Positions 5,026 to 13,395 of a stretch of 20,656 nt of DNA are shown here, one piece after another. Under the pieces are notes generated by a model that saw nothing but the letters and a program-made list of their open reading frames with translations, ran no database searches and was not told the origin of the DNA. A program made the translations under genes and the position numbers. Source of the DNA: a virus; IMG/VR virus record IMGVR_UViG_3300037963_002542, positions 5,911 through 26,566 of that record. One strand, 5' to 3'. Positions within the stretch are counted from its first letter, which is position 1, and every line of letters begins with the position of its first letter.

Positions 5026-5385
5026 TCAGAATTTGTACTTCAGGCCAGCCTTAAGGCCATAACCAGCATCAGCATCCTTGTACTTGGCGTAGGACACTTC
5101 GCCGTAAACATCCAGAGGTTCTGCAACAGCGGCAGAAACACCGGTCTTGGCGGAGAAGCCAACCTCGGTGTCACCTGCATCAGGTTGCAGCCAAGAAGGA
5201 CCGCCCTGGATGTAGAAGGCACCTGACTCATAGCCAACGTGACCGTCAAGAACAGCACCGCCAAAGTCAGAACCAGACCAGCCGCCGTTCCACTCAGGAT
5301 TCAGATAAAAGCCGTCTGCGCGTGCAGACAGGGGGGCCAAGGCAAGAGCACCAGCGATGGCACCAAAAGCAAGACGCTTGATCAT
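5026..5385 (-). CDS. Phage-encoded outer-membrane beta-barrel protein
   Basis: The 119-residue product starts with a Sec signal peptide (MIKRLAFGAIAGALALAPLS, cleavage after ARA). The mature part of about 97 residues alternates polar and aromatic or aliphatic residues in roughly six strand-like segments, for example GAFYIQGGPSWLQ and LDVYGEVSYAKY. It ends in KYKF; a terminal aromatic residue is the usual signal for BAM-dependent outer-membrane insertion. It lies 11 bases behind a small basic-protein gene and is followed by a terminator, so it is probably expressed late with the structural genes. Possible roles include superinfection exclusion, altering host permeability, or envelope disruption. 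None of these is shown by the sequence. Confidence 0.75.
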   Translation of the reverse strand: MIKRLAFGAIAGALALAPLSARADGFYLNPEWNGGWSGSDFGGAVLDGHVGYESGAFYIQGGPSWLQPDAGDTEVGFSAKTGVSAAVAEPLDVYGEVSYAKYKDADAGYGLKAGLKYKF

Positions 5386-8280: not shown

Positions 8281-11200
8281 TTAAACGCCCCTGCCATAGC
8301 CCACAGCCGCATAGGTGAAGTTCCTGTCAACATTGGCGTTACTACCGTTCAGAATGTCTACATCAAAGCCAGTGGCGCTGACATTGCTGACGTTTAGGCG
8401 CTCACCGTCGCCAAGATTTTGCACCGTAACTGCAACACTCGGCAGATAAGCGTTCGATCCGCCAAGCGAAGCTGTGCCTACGAAGAACGCCTTATCAAAC
8501 GTCACGCTCTTTGTGCTGGTGCCTGAAGCAATGGTGCCGTTGCTGTTCTCCTGACGACGCTGGAAAGTCGCTTCATAACCCAGCTCATCAACCAAAATAT
8601 TCTGAGCAATATCAGAGCTTTCCAACTCTGCTTTGAACTGAAACGCCCTTGCTTCAAACGTTCCAGACACAAACTCCTGCCATGCACCATACGTTGGTGA
8701 GCCCGATGGATCATCGTTGGTACTTCTGAAATACAGCTTGGCGTTCACTGCATCAGCCTCTGTGCCATCAAAGTCATTCCAGGTGTCAACGTTTGCCGTG
8801 CGGGAATCAATCAGATCATTAGGGAAAAACGCTCGTGTGACAAAGCGCCGCTGAAGATCCAGTGAAAATCGTGCACCAAGGTCTAGCGCATTAACAAACT
8901 GGTATTCAGCAGAAGACAGGACATCGCCAAGCGTGTCAAAAGAGCTGATGTCGTCAAAGTCCGTTTGATCATCAATGTCTTCGCTACCATCGATAATTAG
9001 CGCATCTAGCCCCTCGTCATAGAAACAATCGGTTTTAGTGCCTTGGAATGGCGGCGTGTCTTGATCCTCACGACGAGTCTGAACAATCAGACGCCCCAGA
9101 GTGTCTGGGAGCTGCATGATTACGCTGGTTGCGTTTGTGCTCTTGTTGCCAAGATCGTCTTCAAACTTGGCAAAAATTTCACCAGCCACCAGAGGAACGA
9201 TTGCTTCAGTTGAGTTGCCCGCAACAGCAGGGATCAGGTCAACAGAGTTAGGCCAAGTCGCTGTGCCGTCAGTTAGGTTGCTGTGCTTGATGTGAACAAG
9301 GCCATTGACCCTTACGTCAAGATCAGTGGTCTGATCCCAACGCAGACGAGCACTGTTAGCGCTAATCGGTTCAATCGATAAGTTCTGCACATCAGCAGGC
9401 ACTGCCGTTTTGCCCACAAGTGTGAATGTTGCTGTCGAAATAGTGCTTTGTTTACCTAGATAGTTACGGGCCAACACTTGCGTGCTCAACGTTCCGGCAC
9501 GCAACGCCCGTAATGTGACCGATGGAGTGGTGGAGGTCAGTGTTGTGAAATTATCATTGTCAATCTTGTACTTAACAAGAAAATCATTAACATTGGCTCG
9601 ATCATGACTCCAGCTGAAGTCAAAACCAGTGTGAACCGTCTGACCCTCTTGATACAGGAACTCAGTACCTGTCAGGTCCCCTGGAGCGGTAGGCGTGCCG
9701 GAGAGATTATTAACGTCTCGTGCGGTCAGCGCAACATCTTCCTCGACGGCTGCATAAATTGATTCGTTGTACGCAATAGCACTAACGCCATAAACACCAT
9801 CACCAGACTCTGCTACTGATAAAACACGAAACTGTTGAGACTCAATGTCTGAAGTCTGAATTAGATAAACAGCTGCTGCGTTAGGCGCTTCGCTAAAAGC
9901 ACTGTCAACAGTAATAGCCGCCCCAGAAATGCTAGAGATGGTCTTAGTTTCAACTAAGCCCGTAGGCATCAAGACTGAAATTGTCGGGCTAGAAGCAAGG
10001 TTTACTGACAAGTTTGTGTCGCTATCAATCGTAATTACTGTCGTCGTAGCAGAACTAACTCGTCCACTTCTGCGCGTTCCGCCACGCACCGGATCGGCAA
10101 TATCAACAACCATCCCTGGCCGAAGAATGATTCCGCTTTCAATAGCGACCGCAAACTCGCAAGTTTCAGTTAAATTTTGCTCAGACAGCAGTGTCCATTT
10201 ACCTAAACGGTGGGCTTGGCCCTGGCTATAACAACCAATAGCCTTGATGTCTTTTTTGATAATGCCGTACTTGGCAACAGCAGCGTGATCTTCTACATAT
10301 TCGTACTCAATATCGCCACGAGTGTCGTATGACTGCCATGCCACTACGGCGACGGTGTGACGAGCCTTTTGCGCAGAACCTGAATAAGAAAACGTTCCAT
10401 CAACAACGTTAGATGGGCCAAGCAAGTATTGAGAATCAGTTGGTTTATCCTGAAGCAGCACTAACGATCCAGATCCGTAATACGCAATACCACGGAAGAT
10501 CCCGGTCAGTTGCTGAATAACGTTGTAGACCTCATCACGACTATTAATGAGGATGTTAAGGCTGAACCGTGGCTCTTGGCCGCCTTTGCCGTCGTCTACA
10601 AGCGCGTTGCAATACTGACTAATCGCAAAAAAGTCATAGCGATCAAGCGTATCTTCTGGGATACCAGCTCCATATCGATCATTGATGAGCAGGTCGTATA
10701 AGCACCATGCTGGATCATTCGTCCAGGTTGCAGCCTGAAAAGTTCCGTCCCAAACCCCGGAGTACGTGATCCGTCCTAAATGGGTAGTAGTGTCTACCGT
10801 TGCATTGCTGGGAATCTTGACCTTGATGCCTCGTATTAGATATTTACGAGACGGAACACTGCCAAACTGACGAGAGTCGAATCGCAGACCAACTAAAGCA
10901 GTATTGGGATAACGAAATTTCTCGTCAATAATTTCGGTGTAAGCCTGAAAAAACGTTGAACTAGCACGACGTGTACTGGTTTCATTAGCACTAACGCGCA
11001 CCATCCGAATATCAACCGGAAAGGCTCCGCTAAGCGCAATCATGTAGTCACGCTGATACCTTGCGCTGCTTTTTCCACTGATTGTGTCTGAAATTACGTC
11101 GTTAAAGCCACCACCGTTGTACTGAACTTGAATCTTGATGCTAACTGAATGACCGGTAATATCACCATCGTCTTCAACGATTCTCAGTGATGGAATCGTT

Positions 11201-12027
11201 AGCGTGACACGCACTCGATCTACGTCAGTGTCTGTTATTGATCGGGTAACAGGTGTGCCATTAACAACTTCGGCGTTTACGGCCTGTTCGGACTGAGTTG
11301 CGCCAAACTCACCAGTAATGTGCGTCTGCGTTTGCGTTCCAGTGCGCGTAACGATCGAAAAAGCGCTGAAATTATTTGAGCCGTCAGCATTCTGGAGCGG
11401 CGTGTCTTGCAAAAAAATGCTTTTATTACCGTCTTCTAAACCTTGAATTTCGCCTTCGCTCAATACATCAAGAACACTGGCAAACTGGACTGACTGAAGA
11501 GTGTCGTCAGCTTCTGTAGGCGTGTGAGTGCTCCCGCCACCACCTTTACCTCCACCACCACCACCAGCACCGGCAATACGTGCGCCTAATCCAGCATTAT
11601 GAACACGCACACTGTTGGCGATAAAAGTATGTTGACCTTCTACAGTCAGGTTGTAGACCATATGCGTTCCAAGATCCGTTTGGCCGACAATCGGGCGTAG
11701 ATGACCAAATTCATCAACTACGCAATCATCAGTGCCCAGCGTGCCGATTGACGCAAATGTATTGAACTGATTTAGAACCCAATGATTAGGTGTAGCATCT
11801 AAAAACTTGTCGCCCCAAAGCTTGTACCTGACAACAGTTTCGTTTTCATGTTTATGGACTTTAAGAACTTTGGAATCGTGAATAATTCCTTTGTCATCAA
11901 AGCTGCAAACAGTATCGCCAACTTTTATTTGGTCAATTCGCTGTGTGCCACCTGGTACAGAAACAAGCGTGTCGCCCGTAAAACAACCGCCACCACCAGA
12001 ACCAGCAATGTATTTGGCTCGTGTCAT
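8281..12027 (-). CDS. J: Tail-tip host-specificity protein, lambda J type, with N-terminal Hint domain
   Basis: The 1248-residue protein forms the tail-tip hub that contacts the cell. Residues 15-144 are an intein-like Hint domain (separate entry). From about residue 166 the protein follows lambda J closely: THTPTEADDTLQSVQ, VLDVLSEGEIQGL, RYPNTALVGLRFDS, YSGVWDGTF, PAWCLYDLL and SQGQAHRLGKW. Two fibronectin-III-like domains lie near residues 777-965 (one contains FDFSWSHDRANVNDFLVKYK). A long C-terminal part is not obviously lambda-like and probably varies with the host receptor. Its ATG overlaps the stop of gene I (ATGA). Lambda J has no Hint domain, so the first 165 or so residues are an addition ahead of the conserved start. 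Confidence 0.92.
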   Translation of the reverse strand: MTRAKYIAGSGGGGCFTGDTLVSVPGGTQRIDQIKVGDTVCSFDDKGIIHDSKVLKVHKHENETVVRYKLWGDKFLDATPNHWVLNQFNTFASIGTLGTDDCVVDEFGHLRPIVGQTDLGTHMVYNLTVEGQHTFIANSVRVHNAGLGARIAGAGGGGGGKGGGGSTHTPTEADDTLQSVQFASVLDVLSEGEIQGLEDGNKSIFLQDTPLQNADGSNNFSAFSIVTRTGTQTQTHITGEFGATQSEQAVNAEVVNGTPVTRSITDTDVDRVRVTLTIPSLRIVEDDGDITGHSVSIKIQVQYNGGGFNDVISDTISGKSSARYQRDYMIALSGAFPVDIRMVRVSANETSTRRASSTFFQAYTEIIDEKFRYPNTALVGLRFDSRQFGSVPSRKYLIRGIKVKIPSNATVDTTTHLGRITYSGVWDGTFQAATWTNDPAWCLYDLLINDRYGAGIPEDTLDRYDFFAISQYCNALVDDGKGGQEPRFSLNILINSRDEVYNVIQQLTGIFRGIAYYGSGSLVLLQDKPTDSQYLLGPSNVVDGTFSYSGSAQKARHTVAVVAWQSYDTRGDIEYEYVEDHAAVAKYGIIKKDIKAIGCYSQGQAHRLGKWTLLSEQNLTETCEFAVAIESGIILRPGMVVDIADPVRGGTRRSGRVSSATTTVITIDSDTNLSVNLASSPTISVLMPTGLVETKTISSISGAAITVDSAFSEAPNAAAVYLIQTSDIESQQFRVLSVAESGDGVYGVSAIAYNESIYAAVEEDVALTARDVNNLSGTPTAPGDLTGTEFLYQEGQTVHTGFDFSWSHDRANVNDFLVKYKIDNDNFTTLTSTTPSVTLRALRAGTLSTQVLARNYLGKQSTISTATFTLVGKTAVPADVQNLSIEPISANSARLRWDQTTDLDVRVNGLVHIKHSNLTDGTATWPNSVDLIPAVAGNSTEAIVPLVAGEIFAKFEDDLGNKSTNATSVIMQLPDTLGRLIVQTRREDQDTPPFQGTKTDCFYDEGLDALIIDGSEDIDDQTDFDDISSFDTLGDVLSSAEYQFVNALDLGARFSLDLQRRFVTRAFFPNDLIDSRTANVDTWNDFDGTEADAVNAKLYFRSTNDDPSGSPTYGAWQEFVSGTFEARAFQFKAELESSDIAQNILVDELGYEATFQRRQENSNGTIASGTSTKSVTFDKAFFVGTASLGGSNAYLPSVAVTVQNLGDGERLNVSNVSATGFDVDILNGSNANVDRNFTYAAVGYGRGV
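11554..11577 (-). repeat. 24-bp repeat on the C-terminal side of the Hint domain
   Basis: It encodes IAGAGGGG (J residues 151-158). It matches the copy at 11986-12009 at 21 of 24 bases by eye. The pair brackets the Hint domain and the six residues after it. Confidence 0.6.
11596..11985 (-). other. Hint (mini-intein / bacterial intein-like) domain inside J
   Basis: This 130-residue domain has all the recognisable splicing blocks. Block A opens with the nucleophile Cys15 (CFTGDTLVSV), block B has the TxxH motif (ATPNHWVL, Thr79-His82), and block F is VYNLTVEGQHTFI. Block G is VRVHN, ending in His143-Asn144. At this size there is no room for a homing endonuclease. The residue after Asn144 is alanine, not Cys, Ser or Thr, so the standard splicing step is not available. 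That is typical of A-type bacterial intein-like domains, which cleave and sometimes splice. C-terminal cleavage would release J beginning AGLGARIAG, close to the lambda J start. Activity cannot be read from sequence. Confidence 0.88.
11986..12009 (-). repeat. 24-bp repeat on the N-terminal side of the Hint domain
   Basis: It encodes IAGSGGGG (J residues 7-14), directly before the Hint Cys15, and is the partner of 11554-11577. Part of the similarity is GGT-repeat bias, but the leading ATTGC-GGT is also shared. Confidence 0.6.
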
Positions 12028-12689
12028 GCGCTCACCTCATCAACATCAAGACCGCTAGAAATAATTGCCGATCCAACGAACACCCGTCCATACGCTATCG
12101 GAACCGGTAGACCCTGCTTTGATGTATTAACGACGTTTGAGAACGAAAATGATTCAAGCTGGACTGATTCATCAATAGTCCTGTCTAAATTTGGCTGAGG
12201 AGAAATTGACTGAGCAATTCCTAAAAACACCAAGCCAATACCAATGTTGCCTGCAAATGCGGCTGCCGCTCCAGCAAACGCAGTTGCAGCGCTTGCACCC
12301 GTGGCAGCAGCCGCACCAGTAGCAGTGAATCCGCCAGCAGCAGCACTAAAGCCAGCTACAGGAGCCAAAACCGCAACAGTGATCAATGCCACTCCTGCCA
12401 AAATCGTTCCAAGCCCCCGACCTGCACCAGCAATAACGGGAGTAATGCTAAAAACCTCTCTTTCACTCCAAGGCATAACCAAAGCATTTAGATCTTCGGT
12501 GACACGTTCTTTCCCAATAGTTACTCGATAGCCAACACCGTCTTTTTCGCTATCAATAAGCCATTTATCAAGACCTGGAAAATTTACACATAAAGCTTTG
12601 ATAGCTTGGGCTGGTGTTGCAGCCTCAAGCTCAAACCGGCATTGGCCTAATCGCTTACGAAGTGCGCCGTAAACCTTAACGACTTTCAT
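12024..12689 (-). CDS. I: Tail-tip assembly protein, lambda I type
   Basis: The 221-residue protein has a ubiquitin-like N-terminal part (MKVVKVYGALRKRLGQ, then ELEAATPAQAIKALC). A Gly/Ala-rich hydrophobic middle (about residues 85-155, GAGRGLGTILAGVAL onward) follows. The end is characteristic of lambda I proteins (LPVPIAYGRVFVGSAIISSG). In lambda, I is needed to build the tail-tip complex around J but is not found in mature virions. It overlaps K by 14 bases and J by ATGA, in exact lambda order. The Ala/Gly-rich middle is longer and more repetitive than average, a common variable part. Confidence 0.85.
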   Translation of the reverse strand: MKVVKVYGALRKRLGQCRFELEAATPAQAIKALCVNFPGLDKWLIDSEKDGVGYRVTIGKERVTEDLNALVMPWSEREVFSITPVIAGAGRGLGTILAGVALITVAVLAPVAGFSAAAGGFTATGAAAATGASAATAFAGAAAAFAGNIGIGLVFLGIAQSISPQPNLDRTIDESVQLESFSFSNVVNTSKQGLPVPIAYGRVFVGSAIISSGLDVDEVSA

Positions 12690-13395
12690 GCCTCAAGGCG
12701 CAAGCAGTGCTCTTGCCATAGTAACTGCTGCCAAGGGTGTAAACATCCCTGCTCGACAGCCTTCCTTGCACATGATGCAAGATCTGGGAGTCACCTAGAT
12801 AAATCGCAGCATGGTTTGGAACGGGTGAAACCAGCTGCATCAGCAAGGCATCACCGCGCTGCAGCTCTTCAACCGGAATCTTGTGGAACCCTTCCTTCTG
12901 AAAGTTTTCTAGATACAGGTTTTCGCCATGCTCCCACCACTGGTCTCGACGGTCATAATCCCGCAACTCAAGCCCCCACTCCCTTCCGTACCAATCACGG
13001 CAAAGGCTGTAGCAGTCCACAATGCCGTGAACAAACTCACGTCCCACATACGGAAGCTCAAAGCCCTCTGGCTCGCAGTAGCCCCAGCCCTCAGTGTTTG
13101 GATTAACAATGAACCAAGGCAGACCAGACTTTTCGCACGCAACACGATCAGCCGGTGATGGAGCGGGGTTGGTCTTGGGGTGACTGTGGACAACAGCAAC
13201 CACCTCGCCTTTGTCTTCTACTTCGTTCCAACCGTCAAGAATGAAGTGCTCGTCAGGCGTTTCAGCAATGTTGCGACACGGAAAGTAACGCCGACGACCT
13301 TTGACAACAGCCACCAGACCACAACTTTCACGCGGGAACTCATCCTTTGCTTGCTGAAGAATCTCAGCCTGCATTGTTGCTGTCAGCTTCATCAT
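12676..13395 (-). CDS. K: Tail-tip protein K: JAB metalloprotease plus NlpC/P60 hydrolase
   Basis: Two enzymatic domains are visible in 239 residues. The first is a JAB/MPN domain with the complete JAMM zinc signature: Glu23, His70-Ser-His72-Pro, then Ser80 and Asp83. The second is an NlpC/P60 peptidase with Cys128 (VDCYSLCRDWY), His195 (NHAAIYLGD) and a third polar residue at His207 or His208. NlpC/P60 enzymes cut peptidoglycan stem peptides, so this domain could open the wall during DNA entry, while the JAB domain may process a tail protein. Both roles are inferred from family knowledge. The JAB domain is a candidate partner for processing events at the Hint-bearing J next door. ATGA overlaps L upstream. 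Confidence 0.92.
   Translation of the reverse strand: MMKLTATMQAEILQQAKDEFPRESCGLVAVVKGRRRYFPCRNIAETPDEHFILDGWNEVEDKGEVVAVVHSHPKTNPAPSPADRVACEKSGLPWFIVNPNTEGWGYCEPEGFELPYVGREFVHGIVDCYSLCRDWYGREWGLELRDYDRRDQWWEHGENLYLENFQKEGFHKIPVEELQRGDALLMQLVSPVPNHAAIYLGDSQILHHVQGRLSSRDVYTLGSSYYGKSTACALRHESR

Follow-up and report, generated by a model that had tools for sequence, protein, structure and literature searches.

Why should the tail-tip protein of a lambda-like phage begin with a self-processing domain, and what becomes of that domain once the protein has been made? The question is raised by the J gene of the window, the whole stretch of 20,656 nucleotides of viral DNA analysed here. The original prediction placed a Hint (intein-like) domain at the N-terminus of J, between a short start and the lambda-like part of the protein, and proposed that it cleaves or splices J and so might time or license assembly of the tail tip.

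Gene content of the window

The tail genes are arranged in the lambda order H-M-L-K-I-J (Table 1). From residue 158 onwards J was identified by profile search as phrog_31, ‘central tail fiber J’, with the FNIII-A_GpJ match covering residues 245-369. A weak NCBIfam match of residues 288-312 to Shiga toxin B (E 0.055-0.11) was judged to be due to chance. The K protein, encoded near J, carries both the JAB and the NlpC/P60 domain expected of it. The L protein (297 aa) has approximately 65 additional N-terminal residues ahead of its lambda-L part, with a weak match to the head-decoration family phrog_20658 (1.4e-7). Elsewhere, the window encodes a cyanophage-type outer-membrane beta-barrel protein (5026-5385; Phage_OMP, 3.1e-29), a dCTP deaminase (2-493) and a C39-like peptidase with a match to an endolysin family (527-1069), which provide hints to the lifestyle and host of the phage.

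Table 1. Features of the J gene and neighbouring tail genes, with positions in the window
Feature	Position	Strand	Evidence
J, lambda-type tail-tip/host-specificity protein, 1248 aa, Hint-bearing	8281..12027	minus	phrog_31 4e-235; FNIII-A_GpJ 4e-37; Phage-tail_3 1.8e-13
Lambda-like J body, residues 158-974	9106..11556	minus	phrog_31 match
C-extein start, residues 145-158, AGLGARIAGAGGGG; predicted mature N-terminus	11554..11595	minus	+1 Ala invariant
Hint domain, residues 15-144, 130 aa	11596..11985	minus	profile, structure and family evidence
His143-Asn144, block G, Asn cyclisation; predicted cut after Asn144	11596..11601	minus	VHN in 157/157
Block B, T79-P-N-H82 (TPNH), residues 79-82	11782..11793	minus	Thr and His in 157/157
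Cys15, Cys1 of Hint, putative nucleophile for N-S acyl shift	11983..11985	minus	conserved in 157/157
N-extein, residues 1-14, MTRAKYIAGSGGGG; counterpart of the Hint-less J N-terminus	11986..12027	minus	comparison with relatives
I, tail assembly protein	12024..12689	minus	phrog_32 6.7e-47; SAMP1 only E 0.15
K, JAB + NlpC/P60 peptidase	12676..13395	minus	2.5e-16; 3.1e-14
L, minor tail protein (hub), extra N-terminal segment	13392..14285	minus	Phage_tail_L 2.3e-56

Identification of the Hint domain

The predicted boundaries and active-site residues of the domain (Cys1, TPNH, block F, the terminal His-Asn and the following Ala) proved to be exact. Block F is VYNLTVEGQHTF (residues 124-135) and the domain ends in VHN; the Asn144 codon occupies 11596-11598, Ala145 comes next, and an ordinary lambda-type J follows. 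The start of the C-extein repeats the N-terminal motif of J, I-x-G-[AS]-G.

Profile searches against Hint, intein and bacterial intein-like (BIL) families were positive throughout. Using the whole of J, Pfam returned Hint (9.5e-6), Intein_splicing (0.002) and PT-HINT (0.045), and using the isolated domain the same three families at 5.6e-7, 1.2e-6 and 7.6e-4, respectively; each of the three matched all 32 family members scanned. The NCBIfam model intein_Cterm matched at 3.2e-5, above its family cut-off. The sequence of the domain alone matched mini-inteins and a BIL domain in the PDB, and when the family profile was used the top PDB match was the BIL domain 2LWY (E 3.2e-10).

An AlphaFold2 model built on an alignment of 59 relatives had a pLDDT of 91-98 over residues 21-140 (approximately 95 overall), falling to low values on the Gly-rich flanks. 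Foldseek ranked first BIL2 from the Tetrahymena BUBL1 locus (6y75; 1.7e-12, TM to target 0.80, 23% identity), followed by the gp41-1, DnaB and RecA mini-inteins; 2LWY was matched at a TM of 0.87. The nearest solved folds to the predicted model are thus BIL domains and mini-inteins. Among viral models the best match, at 34% identity, was ‘gp62’ from an uncultured virus. These results confirm that the Hint domain in J is real and complete, rather than a chance match.

Distribution and conservation of the family

In IMG/VR, the best 80 of 457, 547 and 450 relatives were taken from three scans for the domain, the last of which was started from a more distant family member; the three sets overlap. 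The carriers are many uncultured, mostly marine phages. Of 159 distinct Hint sequences retrieved, two end at a contig edge before Cys1, leaving 157 for residue counts. The J body is attached in 153 of the 159, the remaining six contigs ending soon after the Hint domain, and wherever a contig extends to J the domain occupies the same site. A search of genome contigs yielded one match (L082), on a MAG contig that is probably viral, since an IMG/VR contig of equal length carries the same Hint domain (100% identity).

Among loci whose ends were matched, the domain measured 130 residues throughout, both in the initial 97 and in the 108 used for comparison with J. Cys1, the block-B Thr and His, the terminal VHN and the +1 Ala were each present in every one of the 157 relatives. 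Block B reads TPNH in 147, TANH in nine and TPSH in one; the residue preceding Cys1 (-1) is Gly in 156, and the residues following the predicted cut are AGLG in 151 and AGIG in six. Family alignments showed Cys15, Thr79, His82, Asn126, His133, His143 and Asn144 to be invariant. Also invariant, and outside the core blocks, are His58, His60, Asp100, Asp101 and Cys102, which possibly form a metal or redox site within 11596-11985. The median dN/dS of the domain was 0.12 (1995 pairs), demonstrating that it is under purifying selection.

The stable and confidently predicted fold would suit an inactive structural domain that simply remains on the tail tip. This is scarcely credible, however, given that the catalytic positions are all invariant though the relatives diverge to approximately 60% identity.

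J relatives were present in 1,535 of 50,697 phage records, whereas no Hint match was found in these records at a threshold of 1e-5. When the threshold was relaxed to E 10, none of the matches listed lay in a gene annotated as J; those listed were in helicases, terminases, polymerases, an RNA methyltransferase and hypothetical proteins. According to the original prediction, a lambda-type J with a Hint domain is not known to have been described, and none was found in the literature searched, which covered sources other than subscription journals.

Presence, absence and exchange of the domain

A survey of related phages revealed J both with and without the insert: among the closest relatives, with bodies 88-93% identical, some carry the domain and some lack it. 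The Hint-less form begins MTQTKYIAGAGGGGKGGGGSH and runs directly into the body, whereas the Hint-bearing form consists of MTQAKYIAGSGGGG, the Hint domain, AGLGARIAGAGGGGGGKGGGGS and the body. The Hint domain and a duplicate of the start motif therefore make up the insert.

When presence was mapped on a tree of 148 J bodies, a sample biased by the fact that most carriers had been fetched via their Hint domain, at least 13 changes were required, five of them forced by well-supported branches, as against approximately 33 for shuffled states. The domain is therefore partly inherited and partly exchanged. Hint-less sisters fall largely into one clade. Two sequences within a Hint-less group (L134 and L222) carry the domain and keep the MTQT start of that group, and read as candidate recent gains; a third (L092) lacks the domain, yet has the MTQA start otherwise typical of carriers, and reads as a candidate recent loss.

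The relationships of Hint domains and J bodies are discordant in both directions. The J bodies of L095 and L038 are 94% identical, whereas their Hint domains are only 64% identical; conversely, the J body of L059 is 29-35% identical to others with which its Hint domain shares 74-79%. It follows that the domain passes from one J allele to another, in the manner of inteins. Compared with the window itself, L059 (4114 bp) has a J body approximately 37% identical and a Hint domain 71% identical, likely reflecting long-distance transfer. The Gly-coding repeats on either side of the domain would be an obvious substrate for recombination, and the duplicated motif could be a remnant of insertion by recombination within such repeats.

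Predicted self-processing

In canonical splicing, a +1 Cys, Ser or Thr and the block-F Asp serve transesterification, and Asn cyclisation is assigned to the block-F and block-G His (PMC7765530). Members of the J family invariably have Ala at +1 and, at block-F position 4 as placed by alignment, the invariant Asn126 instead of Asp. Since the residues for the N-S shift and for Asn cyclisation are invariant, both of these steps are predicted to be intact and transesterification to be absent. The proposal that the domain is of the kind that cleaves without a standard +1 nucleophile agrees with this active site and with a BIL domain as best PDB match. The prediction is either cleavage at both ends of the domain or ligation by a less common path, suggested for BIL domains.

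The flanks point in the same direction. On the C-side, the sequence AGLG-x2/3-[IV]xG[AS]G places six (130) or seven (25) residues between cut and motif in 155 of 157 relatives; in Hint-less J, six residues precede the motif in 59 of 60 sequences, mostly of one clade. Spacing in the N-extein is variable, mainly three to eight. Because the segment after Asn144 restarts with AGLGxx and IxG[AS]GGGG at matching spacing, cleaved J should be equivalent to Hint-less J. The expectation that a cut at Asn144 would leave a nearly normal J start is thus matched by the natural Hint-less sisters. Its companion, that J might be split into N- and C-products, is not what the anatomy predicts if two long products are meant, the N-side piece being only some 10-20 residues.

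Taken together, these data suggest that the BIL-like Hint domain probably cuts itself off J to leave a protein beginning at Ala145, and that it is an intein-like passenger devoid of an endonuclease. From its constant insertion site within the flexible, Gly-rich stretch that begins J, the domain would form a thioester between Cys15 and the carbonyl of Gly14 by N-S shift, aided by Thr79 and His82, and Asn144 would cyclise, aided by His133 and His143, severing the Asn144-Ala145 bond. Given the invariant +1 Ala and the block-F Asn, which leave no canonical transesterification, the main products would be cleaved J and the freed domain, with or without a short N-peptide. J would remain functional because the segment after the domain supplies its own N-terminal motif, and the domain would be swapped among J alleles by recombination, being gained and lost.

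Splicing without a +1 nucleophile offers a possible but rather unlikely alternative, in which the amine of Ala145, freed by cyclisation of Asn144, attacks the Cys15 thioester and MTRAKYIAGSGGGG is joined to AGLGARIAG..., so that mature J retains its start together with a 14-residue duplication. The conservation throughout of Cys1, Thr79, His82, His143 and Asn144, the nearly invariant -1 Gly and the BIL domain as best PDB match by sequence would all accommodate this route. Splicing as well as cleavage by BIL domains without a C'-flanking nucleophile is reported in the title of Dassa 2004 (reference 69 in PMC7765530), although the citing review states that A-type BIL domains cannot ligate (PMC7765530). 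Splicing is disfavoured by the uniform +1 Ala and block-F Asn and by the variable N-extein spacing set against a nearly constant C-side; moreover, if splicing were reliable, a complete and invariant second copy of the motif would be superfluous. The flanks therefore point toward cleavage. C-cleavage alone needs neither Cys1 nor block B, and their invariance implies that N-side chemistry, whether N-cleavage or ligation, matters too. Selection appears to persist on the -1 Gly, Cys1 and block B, such that removal or transfer of the N-peptide would also be of consequence.

Selection for self-removal and a possible regulatory role

The lambda tail tip is built as a tight trimer, with the hub domains of J in contact with L and protein I running between the domains of J (PMC10721106, PMC11101478). 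Attached to the N-terminus of J, an extra 15 kDa would probably interfere with such an arrangement, so that the insert would have to remove itself in order to persist; the domain would be kept active because an uncut copy would harm tail assembly. This requirement would be enough to account for the invariance without any benefit to the phage; a regulatory role, though possible, need not be invoked.

Such a role would make cleavage a switch, governed by redox state, metal or an assembly partner, which licenses J for tail-tip assembly. In its favour, the site adjoins I and K, further residues outside the core blocks are invariant (Cys102, Asp100, Asp101, His58 and His60), and zinc acts as a switch for BIL2, a related domain (PMC8616854). 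Nevertheless, close sister phages without the domain match carriers in gene order and in the domains of I and K, no correlation was seen between the presence of the domain and loss of the JAB or NlpC part of K, and gain and loss are patchy. The switch is accordingly improbable, and the original suggestion that the domain times or licenses assembly is not supported in the sense of a necessary step, since J proteins with bodies 88-93% identical occur with and without it. A self-removing passenger fits better, since inheritance of the domain is patchy and independent of J.

Relationship to I and K

The ubiquitin-like domain of phage protein I and the JAB and NlpC peptidase domains of K were described by Iyer et al. 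2006 (PMC1779556), who suggested the Gly end of the ubiquitin-like domain as the place where K processes I. In the window, the ubiquitin-like domain of I is followed by VIAGAGRGLG, resembling the N-terminus of J. Comparison of the window I and J start with those of L084-L088 and L304-L313 showed that the segment of I past the ubiquitin-like domain (VIxG[AS][KG]xGG) corresponds to the J start motif ([VI]xG[AS][KG]GG) in most of the diverse phages compared, often with both in matching K or G form; lambda J itself conforms more poorly. The Hint domain always directly follows the start motif of J, and its C-side restores the motif. This suggests, as a lead, that the I/K machinery may use the start of J as a further substrate or docking site, and that the K protease possibly acts at a site which I and J have in common.

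The shared motif also bears on transacylation, whereby the Cys15 thioester would hand the Gly-rich N-peptide to a lysine in the Gly run of J or in another tail protein, much as happens with a ubiquitin-like domain in Tetrahymena BIL2. The top fold match, BIL2, forms isopeptides (PMC8616854), the -1 residue is almost always Gly, a Lys lies within the Gly run in 148 of 157 relatives, and the N-peptide resembles the segment that follows the ubiquitin-like domain of I. The Gly-run Lys occurs in Hint-less J too, however, and so is not special to carriers, and the length of the N-extein varies; transacylation is a very remote prospect.

Comparison with known Hint systems

The domain belongs to the Hint superfamily, having the fold with blocks A, B, F and G. 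It resembles A-type BIL domains in its size and fold (a Hint fold of approximately 130-140 aa), Cys1, block B, C-terminal His-Asn and want of a +1 nucleophile. BIL domains have been reported from the hypervariable parts of bacterial proteins that are not conserved (PMC7765530), whereas the J domain occupies a single, fixed position in a virion protein that is conserved, followed by an invariant Ala-Gly-Leu/Ile-Gly, and shows intein-like gain and loss. With mini-inteins such as gp41-1 and the Mtu RecA splicing domain it shares fold, size, blocks, fixed site, sporadic presence and inheritance independent of the host gene, and insert-free alleles occur at the same site, as for class 1 inteins. 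Unlike these, it has Ala in place of the +1 Cys, Ser or Thr, Asn in place of the block-F Asp, and a duplicated flank, and it resides in a structural rather than a replication protein.

A class 3 intein, which lacks Cys1 and has Cys at block-F position 4, is excluded by the universal Cys1 and the Asn at that position. A homing intein is likewise excluded: no homing endonuclease or inserted domain was found within the 130-residue element, and a Pfam scan of nine further ORFs of the window, outside the tail genes, gave no endonuclease match. The Hint domains of polymorphic toxins (PT-HINT) and toxin delivery share the PT-HINT profile match and C-terminal HN, but are excluded since a whole lambda-type tail protein lies downstream, with no toxin partner or immunity gene. 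BIL2 is similar in being a self-processing, BIL-kind Hint domain near a ubiquitin-like protein; it is situated between ubiquitin-like domains of one polyprotein and makes an isopeptide, whereas in the phage the ubiquitin-like protein is encoded separately.

Implications

Hint domains, BIL domains and phage inteins are already known; what is new is the combination of a BIL-type active site, a fixed site in a virion protein, a duplicated flank and intein-like exchange. Until now, inteins and BIL domains have stood apart, the former being mobile, splicing elements at fixed, conserved sites and the latter cleaving domains in variable bacterial proteins. The J family unites BIL-type chemistry with intein-type mobility at a single site in a conserved virion protein, and the natural Hint-less sister alleles constitute a ready control. 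Whether a mobile protein element can persist through cleavage alone, given a copy of the start of its host protein, is thereby opened to testing. The family also bears on why a JAB/NlpC protease (K) is present in lambda-type tails alongside a ubiquitin-like protein (I), given the motif common to the J start and the segment that follows the ubiquitin-like domain of I. Were the domain to prove a transacylase, phage tail assembly would include a conjugation step of ubiquitin-like type that needs no E1, a counterpart to ciliate BIL2.
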